From IMG/VR virus record IMGVR_UViG_3300025889_000549, positions 1 through 32,069 of that record: a stretch of DNA of 32,069 nt. The stretch is one strand, 5' to 3'. A model generated the notes under the pieces. The model did not search any database. It was not told where the DNA came from and saw nothing but the letters and a program-made list of their open reading frames with translations. Below are positions 1,987 through 30,552 of this stretch, in pieces. The DNA comes from a virus. A program made the translations under genes and the position numbers. Each line of letters starts with the position of its first letter. Within the stretch, counting starts at the first letter, position 1.

Positions 1987-2174
1987 CAGAAGATCCTCCT
2001 GACCAGTTTGATATCAGCCACATTGATTAGATTCAGGAATGCCTGCAGCTCTGTGATCAGATCTTCGGCAGCATAGGCATCATAGTAGACAGTCTTGCCA
2101 TCGACTGAGCACTTGAGCTCTGGATACTTCTCCCGAAGGATCTGCTCCAGAGGCTTCTTCTCAGCGAGGCTCAT
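1986..2174 (-). CDS. hypothetical protein, 62 aa
   Basis: A small helical protein (MSLAEKKPLEQILREKYPEL, then DLITELQAFLNLINVADI) with no known motif. It overlaps the RecT-family stop codon by ATGA at its start and the next gene by TGATG at its end, so it is almost certainly translated as part of the operon. The tight coupling to the annealing protein suggests a recombination accessory role, but that is inference from position only. Confidence 0.7.
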   Translation of the reverse strand: MSLAEKKPLEQILREKYPELKCSVDGKTVYYDAYAAEDLITELQAFLNLINVADIKLVRRIF

Positions 2175-3301
2175 ACAATCTTCTCCTGCTCTCCAGCATC
2201 GGTCCGCTGATCGGTAGGCAATTCTTCATCGCCAGATAGTACAGCAGATGATCGGTCCATTAGAGCTCGCCACTTCTCATCGGTCTTGATTGAATTCTTT
2301 GTGATCACTCCAGTGACATCCTTCAGCCAGCGGAGCTTGTACTGAGCCTTGATAGGCAGAGCTTCGTATTGACCCCATGCAGCCTCTTTGAATTCATCAT
2401 CTACTGGAGGCAGTGGCTCGGCCACTTCTTCAGGCTCAGGATCTGCAGGAGCTTCCTCGACAGCAGGCTCTTCATCAGGACCACTTGCTTCGGCTGGCTC
2501 ATTCGGATCGGTGATATCTGGATGATCTTCTGTACCTTCATTGCTTGGATCGACTTCCACTGCTGCTTCCTCCTTCTCAGATTTTGGACTACTTTTTTGT
2601 TCAGGCATATTCGTGATGTTGCCATCGGCATCCATATCAATGACCATGCCATCTGCTGACACTCGAGCATTGAGCTCATCGGGAGTGTAGACTAGCATGC
2701 CACTGAAGACATCAGGGCAGTATGTCCTGACACCATTGCTGATGCATCGAGCGAACATCATGGCCTTCGGATAATTCTTCCAGTTGTCTTTGCACAGACA
2801 GCCATCCTTCGATTCATTCTGCTTCTTCCATTTATTCCAGCGAGAGATCGGTCGGATGTTGTGCTTGAGCGGAGCTTCCTCACACTCAGGATCAAGCAGG
2901 CCAGCCATGCGAGCCTCATCAATATCGAAGCTCTCTGTGCCTATCTTGGTCCGTTTGCCAGACCTGATCTCATAGAAGTCTATGACACAGCCATCGAGCT
3001 CCTTCTTCTTAATGTCATAGTCGTATCGACCAGAGCTTTTGACCATGCCTGCCATCGTATTTGCCGACAGCGTGGCATTGCCTTCGATCACATGGACCGC
3101 TCGCATTGAAGCGAATGGAGCAAGGCCGAGCTCCTGGCCTGCCATGATCTTTGTGATTGCCTTTGATGTTCGGTCCATATCGCCACCGAACATTCCCGAA
3201 GCCACGAATGCTTTGCCGACCTGCTCGATTTCCGAGTAGCTCAGTTGCTTCCTGACTTGGATCTGTGACTCTTCAGCCACAGGCTTTTGCTTCTCTCCCA
3301 T
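2171..3301 (-). CDS. RecT-family single-strand annealing protein
   Basis: The 376-residue protein shows the RecT-type core. AITKIMAGQELGLAPFASMR and VIEGNATLSANTMAGMV lie in the first 110 residues, and WKNYPKAMMFARCISNGVR with YCPDVFSGMLVYTPDEL near residues 180-215 matches the conserved end of the core. A long acidic, proline-rich linker (EEAAVEVDPSNEG...PADPEPEEVAEP) and a short C-terminal helical domain follow. RecT proteins anneal complementary single strands during phage recombination. The start at 3301 has AAGGAGGTGCAACTCTT before ATG; an in-frame upstream start at 3379 has no ribosome site and overlaps the HNH gene. A partner exonuclease may be the DnaQ-like gene or lie outside the window. 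Confidence 0.85.
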   Translation of the reverse strand: MGEKQKPVAEESQIQVRKQLSYSEIEQVGKAFVASGMFGGDMDRTSKAITKIMAGQELGLAPFASMRAVHVIEGNATLSANTMAGMVKSSGRYDYDIKKKELDGCVIDFYEIRSGKRTKIGTESFDIDEARMAGLLDPECEEAPLKHNIRPISRWNKWKKQNESKDGCLCKDNWKNYPKAMMFARCISNGVRTYCPDVFSGMLVYTPDELNARVSADGMVIDMDADGNITNMPEQKSSPKSEKEEAAVEVDPSNEGTEDHPDITDPNEPAEASGPDEEPAVEEAPADPEPEEVAEPLPPVDDEFKEAAWGQYEALPIKAQYKLRWLKDVTGVITKNSIKTDEKWRALMDRSSAVLSGDEELPTDQRTDAGEQEKIV

Positions 3302-3354
3302 AAGAGTTGCACCTCCTTCTGTGCTTATGATTATATGTGCTTCGTTAGCCAGTG

Positions 3355-3627
3355 TCAAGCATAATTTTCTGCATGCCATGCATATGCTTTGACCCTTACT
3401 GAAGGCAGCCTTCCGATCGGCTTCGGAATGAGATTCATCTCTCGATCATAGGCATGGTGACATTTTGCACATACCTCCTGCCATTCTTCGGGATCAAGCC
3501 GATACTGATGATCGATGTTCGACCATTGTGTAGATCCCCACGCTCCACAATAGAAGCAGGTCCGAGTCCGCTTGAGATTTCTCTCGGCCCATTTATGTGC
3601 TCGATTGTATTCTGTCTTGGTTATCAT
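3355..3627 (-). CDS. HNH-like zinc nuclease-type protein, 90 aa
   Basis: The residues TCFYCG (C24, C27), NIDHQYRLDPEEW (H40) and VCAKCHHAYD (C53, C56, H57) reproduce the layout of small phage HNH-fold proteins with a CxxC...CxxC zinc site. In related phage proteins the line N-x-S/D-H/G-x-YR-x-DP-x-x-W is common. The catalytic residues are variant, so nuclease activity is uncertain; it may instead be a structural zinc fold that binds DNA. AGAGGTG lies just before the ATG. The upstream DNA holds a hairpin and a divergent plus-strand promoter. Confidence 0.75.
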   Translation of the reverse strand: MITKTEYNRAHKWAERNLKRTRTCFYCGAWGSTQWSNIDHQYRLDPEEWQEVCAKCHHAYDREMNLIPKPIGRLPSVRVKAYAWHAENYA

Positions 3628-3649
3628 GACACCTCTTAATATCTATAAT
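3621..3649 (+). promoter_or_regulatory. plus-strand promoter of short RNA 1
   Basis: TTATCA (3621-3626), a 17-bp spacer and a perfect TATAAT (3644-3649) form a sigma-70-type promoter pointing right. The expected start, about 3656, is the base of the stem of the hairpin at 3657-3688. The promoter overlaps the start and ribosome site of the minus-strand HNH-like gene. Confidence 0.5.
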
Positions 3650-3655
3650 AAATAC

Positions 3656-3699
3656 AGAGACCCCTGTAGTTGCACCTCCAGGGGTCTCGCTTTTATTTC
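3656..3699 (+). ncRNA. candidate small RNA 1: terminator hairpin with RBS-complementary loop
   Basis: A perfect 10-bp stem (3657-3666 with 3679-3688, GAGACCCCTG/CAGGGGTCTC) closes a 12-nt loop TAGTTGCACCTC and is followed by GCTTTTATTT. The unit begins where the TATAAT promoter at 3644 should start transcription, so the RNA would be about 40 nt and nearly all hairpin. Loop plus stem edge contain AGTTGCACCTCC, a 12-nt complement of the RecT-family ribosome site (GGAGGTGCAACT), and 10-11 nt complements of four other phage ribosome sites. The alternative is a simple bidirectional terminator between the 97-residue and HNH-like genes. Confidence 0.4.
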
Positions 3700-3986
3700 A
3701 GCAGATGGACAAAGAAGCGACCAGGCGATCCACGATGATACTTCCTGGCCTTGTATGCTTGCTCCAGGAATCGGCCCTTGCCGAGCTCATATAGCTTCTT
3801 GTAAAAGAATGGATTGAATTTCGGATCATCGATCAGATCCTGGCAGTCTGCAATTATTGCATCTGCTTCTTTGGCATTCGGTTTATCTTTGACTATAGCT
3901 ATAGAAGTTCTTCCAGATTTATTCTCTATAGCTATAGTCTTGATGCGATCGCTAACTAGAGAGCCCACGCTAGATGTAGTGCTCAT
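3693..3986 (-). CDS. hypothetical protein, 97 aa
   Basis: The start at 3986 is chosen because TATGGAGGTG lies 9 nt upstream; the frame stays open to 4199 but the extension has no ribosome site and looks non-coding. The N-terminal third (MSTTSSVGSLVSDRIKTIA) is unremarkable. The C-terminal half (ADCQDLIDDPKFNPFFYKKL, GKGRFLEQAYKARKYHRGSP, GRFFVHLLK) is a compact basic helical domain that looks DNA-binding. It lies beside the candidate origin region, so a replication or regulatory role is conceivable, but I recognise no family. Confidence 0.65.
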   Translation of the reverse strand: MSTTSSVGSLVSDRIKTIAIENKSGRTSIAIVKDKPNAKEADAIIADCQDLIDDPKFNPFFYKKLYELGKGRFLEQAYKARKYHRGSPGRFFVHLLK

Positions 3987-3991
3987 GATTC

Positions 3992-4092
3992 TTGACACCT
4001 CCATAGAATCCCTGTACACTAGAAGGGAATCTTCCACTTCGCATAAGCAAAGTAAAGATAGCCTCTGACTGCAATCAGGGGTTATTTTATTT
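3992..4092 (+). ncRNA. candidate plus-strand promoter-terminator unit (short RNA 3)
   Basis: A perfect TTGACA (3992-3997), 17-bp spacer and TACACT (4015-4020) form a plus-strand promoter. About 45 nt after the expected start near 4027, CCTCTGA/TCAGGGG (4062-4068 and 4075-4081, one G-U pair, loop CTGCAA) is followed by TTATTTTATTT, an intrinsic terminator. The RNA would be about 65 nt and has no start codon with a ribosome site. The promoter overlaps, on the other strand, the ribosome site of the 97-residue gene, so transcription either way could interfere. The loop does not show the CACCTC motif. Confidence 0.35.
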
Positions 4093-4282
4093 GTCCGAGA
4101 TCTCGAGCTCCCAGAATTGTTCTTCCACCTCCCATAAAGATTTTTTGTCTTTGAATGGTTGGTCATTTCATAATACACCATGCTCTGCTCGGTCTGCAAG
4201 CTGCTTATCCTTCGCCTGTGGAATACTATATGTATTCAGTGGATAAGTAAGATTTCTAACAGTGGTAGATGTTTGTCCACAC

Positions 4283-4313
4283 TTGACTCATAAAAGTATG
4301 CTCATGTTAAAAT
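4283..4313 (+). promoter_or_regulatory. promoter of the plus-strand lytic transglycosylase-like gene
   Basis: TTGACT (4283-4288) and TAAAAT (4308-4313), with a 19-bp spacer, point right toward the only convincing plus-strand gene. The start of transcription would fall near 4318-4320, giving a leader of 15-25 nt. The TTGTCCACA box ends 2 bp before the -35 element, so a bound protein there could affect expression. Confidence 0.45.
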
Positions 4314-4974: not shown

Positions 4975-4996
4975 TACCTCACAGACATATGAGGTA
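4975..4996 (-). terminator. minus-strand terminator
   Basis: TACCTCA and TGAGGTA (4975-4981, 4990-4996) form a perfect 7-bp stem with an 8-nt loop. On the minus strand the stem is followed by TTTTATATTC, an intrinsic terminator that would end leftward transcription just before it runs into the convergent plus-strand gene. Confidence 0.55.
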
Positions 4997-5090
4997 GAGC
5001 AGGGGATAATACAGGTGGAGAATTGCACCTCAATTCTTCATATCTTCCATCGATGGAGGGCCAGTCATAGATCTGGCCCTCTTATTATTT
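4982..5090 (+). ncRNA. candidate small RNA 2 or structured 3' UTR with RBS-complementary loop
   Basis: CAGACA (4982-4987), a 17-bp spacer and GATAAT (5005-5010) form a weak promoter. From about 5017 the RNA would hold a 7-bp hairpin AGAATTG-CACCT-CAATTCT (5019-5037), a short linker and the strong terminator at 5056-5090, about 75 nt in all. The segment TTGCACCTCAATT (5023-5035) is complementary over 13 nt to the major capsid gene leader (minus strand, 19249-19261), including its GAGGTG. It could instead be the processed 3' end of the upstream plus-strand gene. Confidence 0.35.
5056..5090 (+). terminator. plus-strand intrinsic terminator
   Basis: GAGGGCCAG (5056-5064) and CTGGCCCTC (5073-5081) form a perfect 9-bp stem with the 8-nt loop TCATAGAT, followed by TTATTATTT. 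It ends plus-strand transcripts from the lytic transglycosylase-like gene or short RNA 2. Its downstream arm overlaps the stop codon region of the 46-residue minus-strand gene. Confidence 0.75.
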
Positions 5091-6027: not shown

Positions 6028-7203
6028 TTATTTATTGAATCCGCTGAAAATACTGGACAGGAAGTCCAAGATCTTCTTCACCAGAGCTTCCAGAGCGGAT
6101 AGCCTCTCGACTACATCGCCTTGTCCTGGCACAGTTGGATCGACATCGATAGGTGGCTCTGGTACTGGTTCACGAGGAGGCTCAGGCTGTGTGCTTGGCA
6201 CTTCACCGAAGCGACTGAGTTCAATACCCCAGTTCTTATTGTTGGTCAGTGACCAATTGCTTCGAGCGAATACTCGGCCAGGTGAGACTGTCTTCAGTTC
6301 GACTAGATCGATATCAGTGCCGACTGCCACGAGCTCACCGAATTCCTTCATGGTGTCGAGGTCTGTGACATAGCTGGCCACAAGCAATCGCATCTTGCGA
6401 GGATTGAGCATGGCTTCCCACTTCTGCTCTACTGTCGGAGGCTGAGTGATCTCAGGTACATAGTCCACAGCATCTTTGACATTGAAGCCATTGGTCTGTC
6501 GGATCGCTCCACCATTGTATGAATAAGCAGTCATGTAGTATTCACCACCGAGAGCATTCTTCGCTACTGCCACAACATCGATGACAGCACCATTCTCATA
6601 TGCTTTGACAGCTTGAGCTTTGCTCCAGTCTGTGAAGTTAAAATTCCAGAGGTTAGTAGCACGAGTCAGTTTGATACGCTTCGGAGTGATCGGTGTGTAC
6701 ACAATCGATGGAGCAGGTGGCTTCGGAGGATTGAGCCATGATGTCACCTTATCCCACACAGCACGAGCATATCCCTTATCTTTGAGATCTGCAGGGCAGA
6801 GAGTGATCTTGTCGCTGACATCTTTGTGGTACTGAATATCTGCAGTCGGATAATTCTTGCGTATCTGCTGCAGTAGAGTCTCGAGGTTGTTCAATGTCTG
6901 TTGATCATAGTACCCACGCCAGTCACCTCGGACCTCAATGGTGATGCTCTGCAGATTGCTCTGCCAGTTGCCATTGGTCCAGGCTGTGTCATCAGTATCG
7001 ACATACTGCTCGATCTGGCCAGGCTGATTGCCGACCCAGAAGTGGCTTGATCCGTTGCGATTTGGATCAGCCCAGAGGTATCGGAGAGTCGCTTCCCATC
7101 CTGCAGAGTGGTGGATCGTTACATACCTGACAGGGTTTCCACTGCGACCAGGAGAGAAGTTATTCCCGTTCGCCTGGTAGAAGTTTGCTATTGATAATCG
7201 CAT
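6028..7203 (-). CDS. endolysin: N-acetylmuramoyl-L-alanine amidase (Amidase_2)
   Basis: The first 150 residues are a zinc amidase of the T7 lysozyme/PGRP type. VRYVTIHHSAGW gives H31, and YHKDVSDKITLCPADL gives H126 and C136, the three zinc ligands; SHFWV and TIEVRGD are also conserved. It cuts the lactoyl-peptide bond of peptidoglycan. Residues 175-250 (TPKRIKLTRATNLWNF, YENGAVIDVVAVAKN) resemble a wall-binding or SH3-like repeat. A Pro/Glu linker and a short amphipathic C-terminal helix (KKILDFLSSIFSGF) follow. The ribosome site is AAGGAGGTGCAATC. It is placed between two membrane proteins in a typical lysis cassette. Confidence 0.9.
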   Translation of the reverse strand: MRLSIANFYQANGNNFSPGRSGNPVRYVTIHHSAGWEATLRYLWADPNRNGSSHFWVGNQPGQIEQYVDTDDTAWTNGNWQSNLQSITIEVRGDWRGYYDQQTLNNLETLLQQIRKNYPTADIQYHKDVSDKITLCPADLKDKGYARAVWDKVTSWLNPPKPPAPSIVYTPITPKRIKLTRATNLWNFNFTDWSKAQAVKAYENGAVIDVVAVAKNALGGEYYMTAYSYNGGAIRQTNGFNVKDAVDYVPEITQPPTVEQKWEAMLNPRKMRLLVASYVTDLDTMKEFGELVAVGTDIDLVELKTVSPGRVFARSNWSLTNNKNWGIELSRFGEVPSTQPEPPREPVPEPPIDVDPTVPGQGDVVERLSALEALVKKILDFLSSIFSGFNK

Positions 7204-7215
7204 GATTGCACCTCC

Positions 7216-7506
7216 TTACTTTGTAAAATATGACTGAATCAGAATAGCCAAAACAGCACCAAGTACTGCAGACAAGATTCCTGTGATTGCCACCGTCACT
7301 GAGTTCTTCAGTTTGACCTTCTCAAATTCCTTTTTCATTTCAGCAAGCTCAATAGCAGTCGCTTCTTTGAATTCTGAGAATTGAGTGTGGTTCACAACAG
7401 TTGGCATCACTTGATCGAATTTGTGCTGCAGGTCCTTGACCCCTTCGATCACTGTGTCCATCTTTGTTTCTACTGCCACAAGCCTCTCCAGCTCCGTCTT
7501 CGCCAT
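7216..7506 (-). CDS. XhlA-like lysis-associated membrane protein
   Basis: With the start at 7506 the protein has 96 residues: a helical, coiled-coil-like region (ELERLVAVETKMDTVIEGVK, FKEATAIELAEMKKEFEKVK) and one C-terminal membrane segment (VAITGILSAVLGAVLAILI). This is the layout of haemolysin XhlA and related phage lysis accessories encoded next to the amidase and holin. GAGGGAG is 12 nt upstream of this ATG; in-frame starts at 7527 and TTG 7539 are possible. Confidence 0.75.
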   Translation of the reverse strand: MAKTELERLVAVETKMDTVIEGVKDLQHKFDQVMPTVVNHTQFSEFKEATAIELAEMKKEFEKVKLKNSVTVAITGILSAVLGAVLAILIQSYFTK

Positions 7507-7576
7507 GTATTCTTGTTGCTCCCTCATAGATAAAAACAATAATGCTTATCCACCATCTATACTCATTGTGACATAA

Positions 7577-7915
7577 TCAGGCGATCTTAATAGACCGCTC
7601 GACATATGGCTGGCGATCCTCCTCGGGTATAGTATTGCCACAGATCTGACACTGATATTTGCTGCCTCCGACCAGACCACAATAGAAGCAAGCCATGCAT
7701 CTCCTGCAGGTTGCTCGATATTCGGTCTGCTCAGCACGACAGCGAGGGCATTGCAGAGTGGAGCAGATCTTCAAATTCGTATCTTGAGGGATCTTGTTTT
7801 GATCCACATCAATGTTATCGAGTGATCGCTTCATCATTTTATGCATCGACTTGCTGCCGAGCTTCGGTACGATCACCGTATTCCTGTGGTAGTGAAGAGA
7901 CCGTCTATCTTCCAT
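7577..7915 (-). CDS. multi-CxxC zinc-binding protein, 112 aa
   Basis: The C-terminal half has CPRCRAE, CRRCMACFYCG and CQICG, eight or more cysteines in CxxC pairs that fit two zinc ribbons. The N-terminal half is basic. It overlaps the end of the upstream gene by 43 nt. AGGAG lies 10 nt before the ATG. It is the last gene of the tail-tip series before the lysis cassette. A structural or chaperone role in the virion, or a nucleic-acid-binding role, are both possible. Confidence 0.65.
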   Translation of the reverse strand: MEDRRSLHYHRNTVIVPKLGSKSMHKMMKRSLDNIDVDQNKIPQDTNLKICSTLQCPRCRAEQTEYRATCRRCMACFYCGLVGGSKYQCQICGNTIPEEDRQPYVERSIKIA

Positions 7916-8370
7916 ATCTCCATATCTCCTACTGTTGATGTATTTGCAAGTGTCTCTGGCAGAAGGATCTCGACTGCAGTGTATCCTGTTGTCGGACCAT
8001 CATCGAATGCATCCTCTTGATATGATACATTGTCGTTCTTCAATAGGTGACTCAGATCAATACTGAGATCCACCCTGCGATTAGCATCGGCCGACTGATT
8101 GACTGTCTGTCTTCTCTGATAGTTTGATATAGCCGACATAGGGAATGGCACAAGCTCATCGACAATACCGACTGATACTATCCTCCGATCGGCTGCAGCC
8201 ACGCTCGAATCAAACAGGAAGACACAGTGGCAGAAGAGTCGCTCGATTGTCAGGGCATCCTTCGGTGGTATGAGATACATGAAGAATCGATTCAAGCACA
8301 TTGAATTGTTGGCAGCAAGCACAGTCTTCAGGCTATATGGATATGGCTGGAGTTTGTTCTGGCTTCCCAT
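7873..8370 (-). CDS. hypothetical tail-region protein, 165 aa
   Basis: A beta-rich protein with the segments CLNRFFMYLIPPKDALTIER and VSVGIVDELVPFPMSAISNY, followed by TGYTAVEILLPETLANTS. It starts with an ATG that overlaps the stop of the upstream gene. The place downstream of the fibre and next to other beta-rich tail-region genes suggests a virion appendage or decoration protein. No family is recognised. Confidence 0.65.
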   Translation of the reverse strand: MGSQNKLQPYPYSLKTVLAANNSMCLNRFFMYLIPPKDALTIERLFCHCVFLFDSSVAAADRRIVSVGIVDELVPFPMSAISNYQRRQTVNQSADANRRVDLSIDLSHLLKNDNVSYQEDAFDDGPTTGYTAVEILLPETLANTSTVGDMEIWKIDGLFTTTGIR

Positions 8371-8909
8371 TATTGCTTCACCTCATAATTATGTTGGACC
8401 ACTCGGAGATACTGCACATTGTCTACATAGAGCTGATCACTCACAAAGAGCGAATTTGTCCAGACTATGTGACACCAGATCTTGCCATCCCATCCTGTGT
8501 CTGTTGGCTGTGGCAAAACATTGCGACCACTAGCTTCAATATCAAATGGAGGTGTGAGGTTATCCTGTAGCAGATTCTGAGCAATGACCTCAGCATCGGT
8601 CATGACACCATCGGCCGACAGCCCGAGATACCAGTCTTGCGGATTGTTTACATTATAACTGTTCGGACACAAACCATCTGATCCGAGATCCTGATATAGT
8701 ACAATGCCACCGAATTCAGGATTGCGGAATGTGATAGATTTATTCTTCACTAGGTATGGATTCACATCGATTGCAAATTTGACCTGAGTCTTGTTCTGTA
8801 CATATGGACACGCTCCACCGCCAGCTCCACCACAATACCTGTAGATAGCCCAGTCCTTCTTCTGCTGGCTCTTGCCATAGCCGATTTGCTTTGTATCAGA
8901 TGCACCCAT
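8370..8909 (-). CDS. hypothetical virion protein, 179 aa
   Basis: The sequence is rich in Gly, Asn, Tyr and Trp with short beta segments (FAIDVNPYLVKNKSITFRNP, IWCHIVWTNSLFVSDQLYVD) and has CGGAGGGACPY near residue 26. There is no membrane segment or enzyme motif. Composition and position among tail-tip genes fit a receptor-binding or baseplate-appendage protein. It joins the next upstream gene by overlapping stop and start codons. Confidence 0.65.
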   Translation of the reverse strand: MGASDTKQIGYGKSQQKKDWAIYRYCGGAGGGACPYVQNKTQVKFAIDVNPYLVKNKSITFRNPEFGGIVLYQDLGSDGLCPNSYNVNNPQDWYLGLSADGVMTDAEVIAQNLLQDNLTPPFDIEASGRNVLPQPTDTGWDGKIWCHIVWTNSLFVSDQLYVDNVQYLRVVQHNYEVKQ

Positions 8910-14695: not shown

Positions 14696-15237
14696 TCACT
14701 TCATCTCAGCTTCGAGCTTTTGCCTCTCGATGTCTTTGAAGCTCCCCTCTATTCTTATTATAGTCAAGAATTCGAGTATCCTATCTGAAGGCTGCTCATC
14801 AAGCTCACCGATAGTCCACCCGAATTCCTTGCAGAGAAGGTAGTCCAGGTATGGTCTCGGCACTGGTCGCTCCTTGTCATCAGAGCTGAAGTAGGATATC
14901 AGGTCTTGGCTGAGTTTTTTTTTGACTCTTTGGCAGTTGCCTCATCTGCACCAGATTCTTTGATCAGGTATAGAGCATCTGCAGGCTCAAGCATATCCAT
15001 ATTCTCTTCAGTGATCTCGGCAATAGTGCCATCGGCCTTGTCGAGATTCCAGTCCTTCACGATCATCATCAGCATCTTGTCTGCTGACATGACCATATCT
15101 ACTTCACCATCTTCCTTCAGGACCATCGAATGCTTGGTCTGACCCCATTTGATGCCGAGATAGATCTCGACCCAGTAATCTTTGTTAGTCGGTAGAGTGA
15201 CCTTCCGAGTCGCTCGGCCTTCCTTAAAATACGCCAT
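14696..15237 (-). CDS. tail assembly chaperone, -1 frameshift fusion (G-T type)
   Basis: Slippage by -1 at the A9 run (14915-14923; heptamer A AAA AAC) joins the 112-residue chaperone to a second frame starting LSQDLISYFSSDDKERPVPR and ending RQKLEAEMK, stopping at 14696. The fused protein has 180 residues and ends 2 nt before the tape measure ATG (14694). This is the conserved arrangement of lambda gpG/gpGT, where the long form recruits tail tube subunits to the tape measure and both forms are needed for tail assembly. No gene starts otherwise explain 14700-14898. Confidence 0.9.
14746..14762 (-). promoter_or_regulatory. late-gene element TATAAT-N3-AATAGAGG, copy 2
   Basis: TATAATAAGAATAGAGG lies inside the frameshifted part of the tail chaperone gene, about 50 nt before the tape measure start. 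The sequence also codes for amino acids here, so it could be chance, but it matches the other four copies exactly in spacing. Confidence 0.35.
14899..15237 (-). CDS. tail assembly chaperone, short form (G type)
   Basis: A 112-residue protein (MAYFKEGRATRKVTLPTNKD, GEVDMVMSADKMLMMIVKDW) located between the tail tube and the tape measure, the fixed place of tail assembly chaperones. Its last residues ESKKNSAKT are coded across the A9 slippery run. It starts with an AAGGAGGTGCAAC ribosome site. The protein is not expected in the mature virion; it coats the tape measure during assembly. Confidence 0.85.
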   Translation of the reverse strand: MAYFKEGRATRKVTLPTNKDYWVEIYLGIKWGQTKHSMVLKEDGEVDMVMSADKMLMMIVKDWNLDKADGTIAEITEENMDMLEPADALYLIKESGADEATAKESKKNSAKT

Positions 15238-15255
15238 GTTGCACCTCCTTATTTA

Positions 15256-18246: not shown

Positions 18247-19230
18247 TTAGGATGTAGCTAGGCCACCGATTTTGTACTGATATGGTTCACCGATCACCTT
18301 CAGCACTGTGGTCTCGAAGACACGAGATTGGATACTGTGGTTAGCGGTTGGCACATCGTAGATCGACAGAGTTTCGAGGTCACTCATCTCGATCCAGTTC
18401 TCACCAGCAGCGGAGCGGACTGACAACAGGAAGGCCCATGATGCAGCGTAGCGACTAGTCACCACTTTGATCAAGTTACCAGTGTTACCATCCACGATGT
18501 TTGCAAGGTGTTGGCCACCAGTTGCAGCACCTTGATTGTCGATGACAATACGCTGGATGCTTCCACTACCTTCGAGCTGATCAGACAGAGCTCGGTTCTG
18601 ACGAGGGTTCAAGACCAGGTGAGACACCAGGTCAGCACCATTCTGGAAGAGAGTCTGAGCGTAATTGCTTACACCAGAAGCGGTCAAGAGACCAGCACTT
18701 CCTGAGTTGGTGGTGATGAGCTTGCTGAAGCCTGAGTACTCTGTGCTGTACAGAGCAGCATCACCAGTGAGAGTCATCACTTCCTCACCGAGCAAGACCT
18801 CTGTGGTCTTGATAAGCTCTTCACGAGCTCGGATGTCTTCCAGGTTGCTACCACGATTGGCAGCGATTTGCTGACGACCGATCTCGACATCACGACCCAG
18901 GTTCTTGTATGGGTAGCTGACGAATTCGTATGTCTGGCTAGTTTGTGAAGGCTGGCCAGCATCTGCGAATCCTACACGAGTACCAGTACCCGTAGCAGTA
19001 GGATCGATCTTGCTTGTTAGTTTGTTAAAAGATGCAGCTTCTCCCATGCCACCGACACGAGGAATGAAGCCACGAACAGGCGTAGCTGTTGGCACAACAG
19101 TCTTCACTACTGGATCAAGATTCTCTGGTGAGTAAATTGATCGGTCACTTGGACTGAATGTGTATGTGCTTTGAGTCACCGCTTTGCGGATCTCATCTTG
19201 CACCATTTGAGCGATTTGATTTGCTTCCAT
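18247..19230 (-). CDS. major capsid protein (HK97 fold), 327 aa
   Basis: The N-terminal helix (MEANQIAQMVQDEIRKAVTQ) is followed by segments usual in HK97-fold capsids: ATPVRGFIPRVGGMGEAASF, FVSYPYKNLGRDVEIGRQQI, REELIKTTEVLLGEEVMTLT and the P-domain-like LVLNPRQNRALSDQL. It forms the icosahedral shell. Codon use is distinct: arginine is mainly CGT here, while most other genes use CGA, CGG, AGA and AGG, which suggests selection for high expression. The ribosome site near the ATG is weak (AAGG); a better GAGGTG is 24 nt upstream. Confidence 0.9.
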   Translation of the reverse strand: MEANQIAQMVQDEIRKAVTQSTYTFSPSDRSIYSPENLDPVVKTVVPTATPVRGFIPRVGGMGEAASFNKLTSKIDPTATGTGTRVGFADAGQPSQTSQTYEFVSYPYKNLGRDVEIGRQQIAANRGSNLEDIRAREELIKTTEVLLGEEVMTLTGDAALYSTEYSGFSKLITTNSGSAGLLTASGVSNYAQTLFQNGADLVSHLVLNPRQNRALSDQLEGSGSIQRIVIDNQGAATGGQHLANIVDGNTGNLIKVVTSRYAASWAFLLSVRSAAGENWIEMSDLETLSIYDVPTANHSIQSRVFETTVLKVIGEPYQYKIGGLATS

Positions 19231-19280
19231 CTGAAGACTACCTTATCTTTGCACCTCAATTATTGACTGTTGAATATCTA

Positions 19281-27395: not shown

Positions 27396-28799
27396 CTATT
27401 TCTTCTGCCTCTCTAGCTTCCGCCTTTGAGCACGATTCATGAATTGCCCTTCAGGACCACGCTTCTGCTCAAGCTCAAAATTCTCTTTGGCAGCAGCGAT
27501 TGCAGCCTCATCGACTACAGCGATCCACTGCTTGCAGATATTGGACCAGTTCAAATTGCTGACCCACTGGAAGGCAGCCTCGACATTTGGCTTCTCTTGG
27601 CCATCCATGATCTTCTCGATTGCATCTGCTGCAGCCTTCACATCCATGAGTGGCCTGATCCGCTCATTGTCACCTTCCTTCACGATCCACATGCTAGGAT
27701 CTGCACCGCTCGGGATCAGCTTGACACGATTCATTGCACCCATCTCTGTGAAGCTCGTATTGTCTGGAGCGACAACAGGAGTCTTTGTGGCCATTGCTTC
27801 GGTCATGGACAGACCCCATCCCTCACCGAGCGTAGTACTCAGCACCAGGTCCGCTGCATTGTATATGCGATTCACATCCTCGATCGGCATACCCTGATTG
27901 GCATTGAAGATCTTCGGACTTGGCAGGAAGAATTCATACTCTTTGCCGAGGCCGAGCTGATTGGCGATAGTGAAGATGTTGCCACCTGAGTCTTCGTACT
28001 GCATGTGCAGGTAGAGCAATGGTCTTCGGCCACGATCCCACAGCTCCTTGAGTATCATGAGGCTTCTGGCTATGTCCTTGCGTGGCTGATTGCGGTTGAT
28101 GTTCACGATCAGGAATCGATCATCGGCTTTGCCATTGAAGTATGAATTTCGGAAGTCGGCCACATCCTTCTTGTCCTGGATCGGGAAGAAGTTGCTCGGG
28201 TTATTGCCATGATAGATAACCTTCAGGCGATCCTCGAGCTCTGGCAGATGCTTCAGGGTTTCGGCCTTGCCATATTCGGTATAAACCACAGGGAAGTCAG
28301 CACCTGCTACTGTGTCCACCCACTGCTTCTTGAGCTGTGCATCGACAGGGTAGTACCAGACTGTCTTGAATACTTTGTGGCCATTCTGAGGCAGGGCATC
28401 CTGAGTCTTCTTGATCTCTTCCATGATCGGCTCGATCACGAAGGTGTCCTGCAGCATGAAGACCACATCATATTTGCCTGAGCCCATGAGGTCCAGGAGT
28501 CGCTGTCGGCCATAGACATCGCCATATGATCCAGCATTCATCATGCCACCAGGCATCGCTGGATAGACATTGCCTGGCCACTTCTCATTGTCCTTCGGAT
28601 CACCTGAGTAATTGATAGCCACGACATCGATATCATACTTGCCTGAAGCGTGAAGCTCTCTGGCTATGTTGCCGAGCACCTGAGCGAAGCCAGTGGCACA
28701 GCAGTAGTCACCATACAGCAAGAGCTTGACCTTCTCAGCACCTGCATCCAGTGCTCGCTTTGCTGCTTGATCGATTGTAGTTTGTCCTATTGCATCCAT
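27396..28799 (-). CDS. glycosyltransferase, GT4-like (GT-B), 467 aa
   Basis: The N-terminal Rossmann domain (EKVKLLLYGDYCCATGFAQV) and the C-terminal domain with ILKELWDRGRRPLLYLHM and ADLVLSTTLGEGWGLSMTEA show a GT-B enzyme with the E-x7-E motif of retaining GT4/GT1 families. It transfers a sugar from a nucleotide sugar to an acceptor. A basic C-terminal end (AQRRKLERQKK) follows. The start at 28799 shares TAATG with the dehydratase stop; GTG 28811 is an alternative. Confidence 0.85.
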   Translation of the reverse strand: MDAIGQTTIDQAAKRALDAGAEKVKLLLYGDYCCATGFAQVLGNIARELHASGKYDIDVVAINYSGDPKDNEKWPGNVYPAMPGGMMNAGSYGDVYGRQRLLDLMGSGKYDVVFMLQDTFVIEPIMEEIKKTQDALPQNGHKVFKTVWYYPVDAQLKKQWVDTVAGADFPVVYTEYGKAETLKHLPELEDRLKVIYHGNNPSNFFPIQDKKDVADFRNSYFNGKADDRFLIVNINRNQPRKDIARSLMILKELWDRGRRPLLYLHMQYEDSGGNIFTIANQLGLGKEYEFFLPSPKIFNANQGMPIEDVNRIYNAADLVLSTTLGEGWGLSMTEAMATKTPVVAPDNTSFTEMGAMNRVKLIPSGADPSMWIVKEGDNERIRPLMDVKAAADAIEKIMDGQEKPNVEAAFQWVSNLNWSNICKQWIAVVDEAAIAAAKENFELEQKRGPEGQFMNRAQRRKLERQKK

Positions 28800-29809
28800 T
28801 ATTTTAGCCACTCCGTATGTCTCACATAGTTTGTTACTGTTCGCTCCAGGCTCTCAGCGAATGAGAGCGGTGGCTTCCACCCGAGCTCTTGGAGCTTCGA
28901 GCCATCCAGACCATAGTGCATATCATGACCAGGCCGAGTAGCGTGGAAGTCCACGATGTCATATTCGAGAGGCTTCTTCAGGATCTTGGCGATCCGCTCG
29001 GCCATCTCGAGATTGGTGAGCTGTGTGTCACCCACGATATTGTATTTGTCAGGATACTCATTCTTCGGACCATAAGCCTTTGGCTGCAGCTCTTCCATAA
29101 TGTAGAGCAGAGCATCAGCATGGTTGCGAGCGTGGAGGTATGATCGAGAGCCGATCTCCTTCTTTGTGCCATGAATCTTGATCCGCTGGCCTGCGAGAAT
29201 GTCTCGAATGACCATTGGCACATACTTCTCCACATCCTGCATCTCACCGATATTATTCATGGTGTTGGTTATCACGAGTGGTACACCATAGGTCCGCCAG
29301 TAGCTGATGGCAATCATCTCCTGAGCTGCCTTGCTTGCTGAGTATGGATTGCTCGGGAGGAATCGCTCCCATTCTGCATATGGATGATCGATCATCGGAC
29401 CATAGACTTCATCAGTGCTGATTTGAATGAAGAGCTCTGGCTGGATCAGGCGAGCATACTCCAGCATATTGACTGTGAGATCCACATTGTTTTTGATGAA
29501 TGGCTTCGGATCTGAGATCGAGCGGTCCACATGAGACTCGCTGGCCATGTTGATGATCACATCGACATCACCGATCTTGTTGAGCTGAGCCACATCCATA
29601 TCCCATGCTAGATTCAAGCGATGGAATTTGAAGCGGTCCTGCCACTCAGGTCTTTTGCCGAGCACCTGATTGATCCTGGCCATGTTGCCACGATGCTGCA
29701 GGCTGTCGATGCCGACTATGTTGCAGTCGGTCTTCTCCAGAAAATGCTCGAGTGTATGAGCTCCGATGAAGCCTGCCACCCCTGTCAATAATACTGTCTT
29801 GCTTCTCAC
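28799..29809 (-). CDS. dTDP-glucose 4,6-dehydratase-like (RmlB-type SDR)
   Basis: A short-chain dehydratase with G10-x2-G13-FIG16 for NAD binding, STDEVYG (T132, D133, E134) and YSASK (Y156, K160), the full RmlB catalytic set. RmlB converts dTDP-glucose to dTDP-4-keto-6-deoxyglucose for deoxysugar synthesis. It is 336 residues, normal for the family, and starts with GTG after AAGGAGGTGCAATC. No rmlA, rmlC or rmlD gene is here, so the substrate and later steps must come from the host or from genes outside the window; related SDR specificities cannot be excluded. Confidence 0.85.
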   Translation of the reverse strand: MRSKTVLLTGVAGFIGAHTLEHFLEKTDCNIVGIDSLQHRGNMARINQVLGKRPEWQDRFKFHRLNLAWDMDVAQLNKIGDVDVIINMASESHVDRSISDPKPFIKNNVDLTVNMLEYARLIQPELFIQISTDEVYGPMIDHPYAEWERFLPSNPYSASKAAQEMIAISYWRTYGVPLVITNTMNNIGEMQDVEKYVPMVIRDILAGQRIKIHGTKKEIGSRSYLHARNHADALLYIMEELQPKAYGPKNEYPDKYNIVGDTQLTNLEMAERIAKILKKPLEYDIVDFHATRPGHDMHYGLDGSKLQELGWKPPLSFAESLERTVTNYVRHTEWLK

Positions 29810-30552
29810 GATTGCACCTCCTTAATTGATAATGGTCCGACTACTGTGCCATCTGCCCTCTTCCATTGAGCAGGTGATAGTGCTGGATCTCCGTATGGTG
29901 TTTTGAATGTCTCATCCAGCAGGCGAGTGACAGAGCCCCACTTCTTCAGGAAGTAGTCATGGCTTTGCTGGCTGTTTGGATTCTCCATCAAGCTCGTGGA
30001 GACACCGCCATAGTGGACCATCGGAGCTTGATTTGTGCAGATCTCTTTGTACCCGAGCAGCCTGGATCGGTAGTGGCTGTCATTGTCTTCGAACCATGCA
30101 GGTATAAAATTCTCATCGAAGAAGCCGACCTTCTCGAAGAAGTCTCGAGCGATCAGGAAGCATGAGAAGTTTGGATGCTCGCTCCATGTGGCAGGAGTAC
30201 CTTCAGCCAGCTTGTAGCTCAGGATGTCTTCAGGATTTGCCAGCTCCAGCATTATATTGTTTGGTGTAACCATCACAACATTCTCGCTCTCATTGAGCTC
30301 TTGGTGTACTCGGACCATCGCATCGATACAGTCAGGACTGAATAAGATATCGTCATTGCAGATCACTGCATAATCACAGCCCTCATCGAATGCTTGCATG
30401 GCCATGTCATTCCAGGCTTGGCTCAGAGGCTTATTGAATCGCCACTGGTCAGCAACATATATCCGAGTCTCATGCTCAGACTTGATGCTATGTACCGCTT
30501 CAGCGAAGCCTTTGAAGTTGTTTAATACTGCGAAGCCGATTCCGATTTTCAT
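29806..30552 (-). CDS. glycosyltransferase, GT2-like (GT-A), 248 aa
   Basis: MKIGIGFAVLNNFKGFAEAV starts a GT-A fold; YAVICNDDILFSPD has the acidic metal/UDP-binding pair, and FLIARDFFEKVGFFDENFIP with WFEDNDSHYRSRLLGYK is typical of the catalytic half of GT2 enzymes. It adds a sugar from a nucleotide sugar. Start 30552 has AAAGG 8 nt upstream and overlaps the previous stop by ATGA; the longer frame to 30582 is less likely. It belongs with the GT4, RmlB-like and FkbM genes. Confidence 0.85.
   Translation of the reverse strand: MKIGIGFAVLNNFKGFAEAVHSIKSEHETRIYVADQWRFNKPLSQAWNDMAMQAFDEGCDYAVICNDDILFSPDCIDAMVRVHQELNESENVVMVTPNNIMLELANPEDILSYKLAEGTPATWSEHPNFSCFLIARDFFEKVGFFDENFIPAWFEDNDSHYRSRLLGYKEICTNQAPMVHYGGVSTSLMENPNSQQSHDYFLKKWGSVTRLLDETFKTPYGDPALSPAQWKRADGTVVGPLSIKEVQS

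Follow-up and report, generated by a model that had tools for sequence, protein, structure and literature searches.

Does a hairpin next to the recT-like gene of this phage encode a small RNA that acts through its loop, and if so, from which strand and on which messages? The window analyzed here spans an entire IMG/VR virus record (32,069 bases), and almost all of its genes lie on the minus strand. Judged on sequence evidence, the hairpin is probably a minimal antisense sRNA of the phage, transcribed as a terminator hairpin and nothing else, with a loop that would pair with the recT Shine-Dalgarno region and block ribosome entry.

Hairpin, stem and loop in four genomes

The hairpin (3657-3688, plus strand) sits between the stop codon of a 97-aa ORF (P0003; 3693-3986, minus), a conserved neighbor of no known function whose end adjoins it, and a 90-aa ORF (3355-3627, minus). 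The recT-like gene lies farther on (2171-3301, minus); it encodes a 376-aa single-strand annealing protein (PHROG 561, E = 4e-26) and is preceded by a sequence pattern that constitutes a perfect promoter, TTGACA-17-TATAAT (3330-3358, minus). The 90-aa ORF carries HNH-like Cys/His motifs without Pfam or PHROG support, occurs in the window only, and is inserted exactly between the -10 box of the hairpin and the recT promoter. It is possibly a mobile endonuclease.

Ten perfect pairs, formed by GAGACCCCTG (3657-3666) and CAGGGGTCTC (3679-3688), enclose a 12-nt loop, TAGTTGCACCTC (3667-3678). A putative promoter, TTATCA-17-TATAAT (3621-3649, plus; boxes at 3621-3626 and 3644-3649, separated by 17 bp), would start transcription at about 3656-3657, and a U-rich tail, GCTTTTATTTC (3689-3699, plus), follows the stem as a putative intrinsic terminator. 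Promoter, perfect stem, loop and tail had each been described in the first-pass annotation and were found again at these positions. The predicted fold of 3650-3705 has an energy of -22.7 kcal/mol with z = -5.3, and none of 200 shuffled sequences folded equally well. Only 0.3% of 9-nt windows, counted on both strands, lie inside the loop of a stem with at least 10 pairs. The sequence TTGCACCTC occurs twice in the window without a gene behind it, at 3670 and 5023, each time in a hairpin loop.

Three relatives in IMG/VR carry the locus: G1 (IMGVR_UViG_3300021604_000007), G2 (IMGVR_UViG_3300011338_000631) and G4 (IMGVR_UViG_3300045242_000106). In this order, RecT is 83%, 77% and 59% identical to that of the window, and the portal protein 85%, 84% and 72%. 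The hairpin adjoins recT in all four genomes. Its stem in G2 is that of the window, while G1 has GAGTCCGCTTG/CGAGCGGACTC and G4 has GAGATCGCCGTCTG/CAGACGGCGATCTC. The full loop reads AAGTTGCACCTC in G1 and TAGTTGCACCTC in the other three genomes; the 12 nucleotides AGTTGCACCTCC (3668-3679 in the window) are identical in all four, even in G4, where RecT is so much less similar and the 97-aa ORF is barely recognizable. When the inner 10 pairs of the three distinct sequences were counted, 100% of the cells were paired and 7 of the 10 pairs had changed on both sides, whereas slid controls left only 33-47% of the cells paired. As the stem pairs have been replaced with full compensation around an invariant loop, conservation of the stem is one of structure alone and that of the loop one of each single base; the loop, kept unaltered while the stem was rebuilt, is thus what matters. 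The first-pass annotation had named a stem that is kept while its loop drifts as the pattern that would speak against a function of the loop, and the three relatives display the opposite, an invariant loop on a replaced stem. The comparison comprises four genomes with three distinct stems, among which loop and target do not change together.

Further searches extended this set by none. A Blast search of 50,697 phage records with the region as query gave no match, and neither a host nor a prophage emerged when 84,980 genomes of bacteria and archaea were scanned twice with profiles of RecT and the portal protein. Two DNA-pattern scans of IMG/VR for TATAAT, a gap and the loop returned 27 and 57 stretches; once these had been checked for the stem, the arrangement TATAAT-stem-NAGTTGCACCTC-stem was left in the known relatives alone. 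A further locus, L007, was set aside since its RecT, at 26% identity, is too distant to inform the comparison.

Strand, putative promoter and tail

Most of the covariation of the stem is compatible with either strand. In all four genomes TATAAT stands exactly 7 nt ahead of the GAG of the stem, with TTAT 17 bp upstream of it. This spacing of the -10 box persists despite differing spacer sequence, and it persists in the window, where all sequence as far as the -10 box has given way to the inserted ORF. The -35 box is weak, agreeing with the consensus at no more than 2-4 of 6 positions. The scored stem contains a single wobble, in G1, which reads U-G on the plus strand but would be a C-A mismatch on the minus strand; likewise, a second hairpin of the window (discussed below) contains two G-U pairs that exist on the plus strand only. 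The tail following the stem on the plus strand is more U-rich than its minus-strand counterpart in G2, equals it over the first 8 bases in the window, is strongest in G1, and is poor on both strands in G4. In sum, the candidate promoter and terminator signals of this intergenic element are a TATAAT at fixed spacing in four of four genomes, a weak -35 box, and a plus-strand U tail in three of four. Because of the fixed TATAAT spacing, the wobbles that pair on the plus strand only and the comparison of the tails, the functional strand is taken, with moderate confidence, to be the plus strand.

Read on the minus strand, the hairpin would form the 3' end of the P0003 transcript and would expose a Shine-Dalgarno-like loop, GGAGGUGCAACU, as a decoy or binding site, be it for a ribosome or for a repressor with a second site at the ribosome site of recT. 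The minus strand is indeed the coding strand, the hairpin comes directly after a stop codon, and the loop is there a perfect ribosome site in the same sense as that of recT. However, the wobble of G1 becomes C-A there, G1 has no continuous minus-strand stem beside the loop, a TATAAT at a constant distance of 7 nt would serve no evident purpose on that strand, no start codon follows the site in the loop, and the ribosome site in the predicted recT leaders does not lie in a comparable hairpin. This reading is therefore unlikely. A small minus-strand ORF starting from a GTG inside the loop was also considered and rejected after its frames had been read, as neither frame nor length is conserved.

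More doubtful still is an ordinary, perhaps two-way, terminator between the 97-aa ORF and recT, whose loop would resemble a ribosome site without function. The position after a stop codon, the G+C-rich stem and the plus-strand U-rich tail in three genomes are what such an element would have. Yet an intrinsic terminator requires an immediate U tract and leaves the sequence of its loop free, whereas here 12 loop bases are invariant across replaced stems, the U tract of G4 is weak and its tails are poor on either strand; the fixed distance to the -10 box would also be left unexplained.

Putative target sites and known antisense RNAs

The plus-strand RNA, which we favor, would present its loop to several messages of the phage. 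The 12 nucleotides AGTTGCACCTCC are complementary at every position to GGAGGTGCAACT (3305-3316, minus), the ribosome site of recT and the best target of the loop. Four secondary targets, also on the minus strand, share the motif GGAGGUGCAA: GGAGGTGCAA ahead of ORF 691-900 (905-914, 10 nt), and sites ahead of the endolysin/amidase gene 6028-7203 (7206-7215, 10 nt), ORF 14899-15237 (15238-15248, 11 nt) and the nucleotide-sugar epimerase/dehydratase gene 28799-29809 (29812-29821, 10 nt). The earlier count of one 12-nt complement at recT and four complements of 10-11 nt at other ribosome sites is thereby correct. G2 has a GGAGGUGCAA site of its own, the ribosome site GGAGGTGCAA of an 88-aa ORF just upstream of groEL. 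In that genome (L077) the 88-aa ORF (8418-8684, minus) precedes a full GroEL gene (6791-8416, minus; PHROG 5725, E = 1e-118).

When the start codons of ORFs of at least 45 aa were ranked in each of the four genomes, recT had the longest and strongest loop match every time. In G4 the match comprises 10 nt and, after a one-base bulge, 3 more, the loop itself being unchanged. The predicted energies of the loop and its closing base with recT are -22.2 (window and G2), -22.4 (G1) and -20.0 (G4) kcal/mol, compared with -16.3, -16.3 and -15.9 kcal/mol for pairing with a canonical 16S 3' end; these values exclude loop strain, which would lower them. In the recT leader of the window, the Shine-Dalgarno sequence is predicted to fall largely within the loop of a short hairpin. 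The excess of the 12-nt match at recT over the 10-11 nt found elsewhere could in part be due to chance. The CAA extension after GAGGTG is commoner in these genomes than in unrelated contigs (5/8 versus 4/22), a small contrast between genomes that are not independent, and it is only suggestive of GGAGGTGCAA as a phage-specific code.

The same ranking bears on whether the plus-strand RNA might be a general brake on translation, in which a CACCUCC loop mimicking the 16S 3' end sequesters many Shine-Dalgarno sites, those of host mRNAs included. CACCUCC is the canonical anti-Shine-Dalgarno core, and the loop would pair to some degree with every GGAGGUG site. Nevertheless, the conserved AGUUG beyond the core matches the ribosome sites of the phage and not the canonical 16S end, and the best phage target is always recT, which makes so unspecific an action very improbable. 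The idea from which this work set out, an antisense element directed against several related ribosome sites, gains support from the invariant loop, the compensated stem, the fixed -10 box and the rank of recT in all four genomes, and it is in these terms that we interpret the locus. The present analysis adds to it the plus-strand bias of the G-U pairs, recT as the main target and the second hairpin at 5015-5041; competition with the 16S 3' end, which the first-pass annotation had named as well, is also possible. An unpaired segment that is conserved and complementary to an mRNA encoded elsewhere, as the 12-nt loop is to recT, is the mark of a trans-acting antisense sRNA.

The hairpin, its covariation, the invariance of the loop, the conserved -10 spacing and the complementarity can be read from the DNA directly; from them we infer transcription, termination and binding, as well as the direction and timing of the effect. 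Plus-strand transcription would begin with the first base of the stem and end in the U-rich tail, freeing an RNA of about 40-45 nt that consists of one stable hairpin. Its 12-nt loop would present AGUUGCACCUC(C) to the Shine-Dalgarno region of the recT mRNA and pair with it over 12 bp, or, in the most distant relative, over 10 bp plus the 3 past the bulge. Ribosomes would presumably be kept from the recT mRNA and RecT synthesis would drop. For the other GGAGGUGCAA genes, that is the endolysin gene, ORF 15237, ORF 900 and the sugar-modification gene, and for the ORF just upstream of groEL in G2, repression would be weaker or would take more of the RNA.

In Firmicutes, RoxS/RsaE, IsrR and the streptococcal csRNAs pair with ribosome sites through an exposed C-rich or anti-Shine-Dalgarno segment; these RNAs are longer than the hairpin RNA, chromosomal, and built from several structural elements. 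A search of Rfam gave no family at the gathering threshold in the window, and the best non-significant hits to the hairpin region had E-values of at least 0.5. The principles involved, pairing through a terminator loop, ribosome blocking by a short RNA and antisense control by phage RNA, are already known from RepG, RNAII and sar, respectively. The RepG sRNA of Helicobacter pylori pairs with a G-rich leader target through the loop of its terminator stem-loop (PMC8295292). The present element is alike in that its only hairpin carries the loop site as well as the U tail (weak in G4), so that the pairing site lies in the loop of a terminator hairpin. RepG is chromosomal, possesses a further 5' part and recognizes a variable G-repeat; in contrast, the hairpin RNA would be phage-coded, would consist of nothing but the hairpin, and has a loop that matches the Shine-Dalgarno sequence itself. 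RNAII of pMV158, a 48-nt trans-acting RNA with a stem-loop, has been proposed to hinder ribosome binding (PMC5703833). It is transcribed across its target and starts pairing through a 5' tail, the stem-loop being auxiliary, whereas the hairpin RNA has no 5' tail ahead of the stem and does not overlap the recT start, and hence is no counter-transcribed RNA of the RNAII kind. Among phage antisense RNAs, P22 sar, lambda OOP, aQ and PAK_P4as15 act on, or are associated with, the gene that they overlap; sar blocks initiation of ant translation and PAK_P4as15 is associated with an endolysin gene (reviewed in PMC12197685). These are likewise short and phage-coded, but the hairpin RNA shares only 10-12 nt with each of several separate targets.

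If real, the hairpin RNA would rank with the smallest known antisense RNAs, being a bare hairpin without a tail or second domain, and sequence alone would suffice to find it, as loop and target are fixed whereas the stem may vary. Its effect on a phage recombinase could be tested directly, its layout of promoter, stem and anti-ribosome-site loop would give a rule by which to search uncultured phages for RNAs of this kind, and translational control would gain a minimal part.

The second hairpin and neighboring elements

The second hairpin, GTGGAGAATT-GCACCTC-AATTCTTCAT (5015-5041, plus), is present in the window and absent from the relatives. It is preceded by a putative promoter, CAGACA-17-GATAAT (4982-5010, plus), likewise confined to the window, and followed by a terminator-like hairpin (5055-5082, plus). 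A 13-nt complement of it, AATTGAGGTGCAA (19249-19261, minus), lies in the leader of the gene assigned as major capsid (SU10_MCP, E = 1e-6), 18 nt ahead of the start codon. The part TTGCACCTCAATT of the second hairpin has one other occurrence in the window, as the complement of this leader, and no shuffled window contained as many matches to it with up to one mismatch as were observed. This arrangement, in one genome, supports the notion that such loops may be tuned to a target.

A wider scheme can be sketched on this basis, in which GGAGGUGCAA is an extended ribosome-site code shared by recT and by lysis, structural and chaperonin-linked genes and is read by a single terminator hairpin of 40-45 nt with an anti-code loop. 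Such loops would have been copied and retuned, as in the second hairpin and its 13-nt match to the major-capsid leader, and one RNA would set the order or level of a phage regulon. This scheme is tentative and on balance rather improbable.

In five genomes a GAGGTGCA site stands about 18 nt ahead of the major-capsid start codon (19230-19261 in the window), which is farther than usual for a ribosome site. A hairpin between Shine-Dalgarno sequence and start codon in this leader was dropped, being weak and not conserved.

Some further elements were observed around recT and the 97-aa ORF. The recT promoter contains TAACGAAGC between its -35 and -10 boxes in the window (3337-3352), G2 and G4, and a similar sequence, AACGAAGC, is found in another promoter of G1 (L002, about 8410); TAACGAAGC is a possible operator. 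The leader of the 97-aa ORF (about 3990-4185 in the window; equivalents in L072, L076 and L077) has two direct repeats per genome, which match inside each genome and differ between genomes, as exemplified by AATATAGGTGGATTC and AATATAAGTGGATTC in G2. The second repeat is spanned by a plus-strand promoter, TTGACA-17/18-TACACT, TACAAT or TATAAT, and by a strong terminator-like hairpin at about 4060-4090, a combination that looks like a counter-transcribed RNA over this leader. Upstream of the 97-aa ORF, all four genomes contain DnaA-box-like sequences, TTATCCAC, TTGTCCACA and similar ones, and this region (about 4190-4290 in the window) is a possible replication origin.
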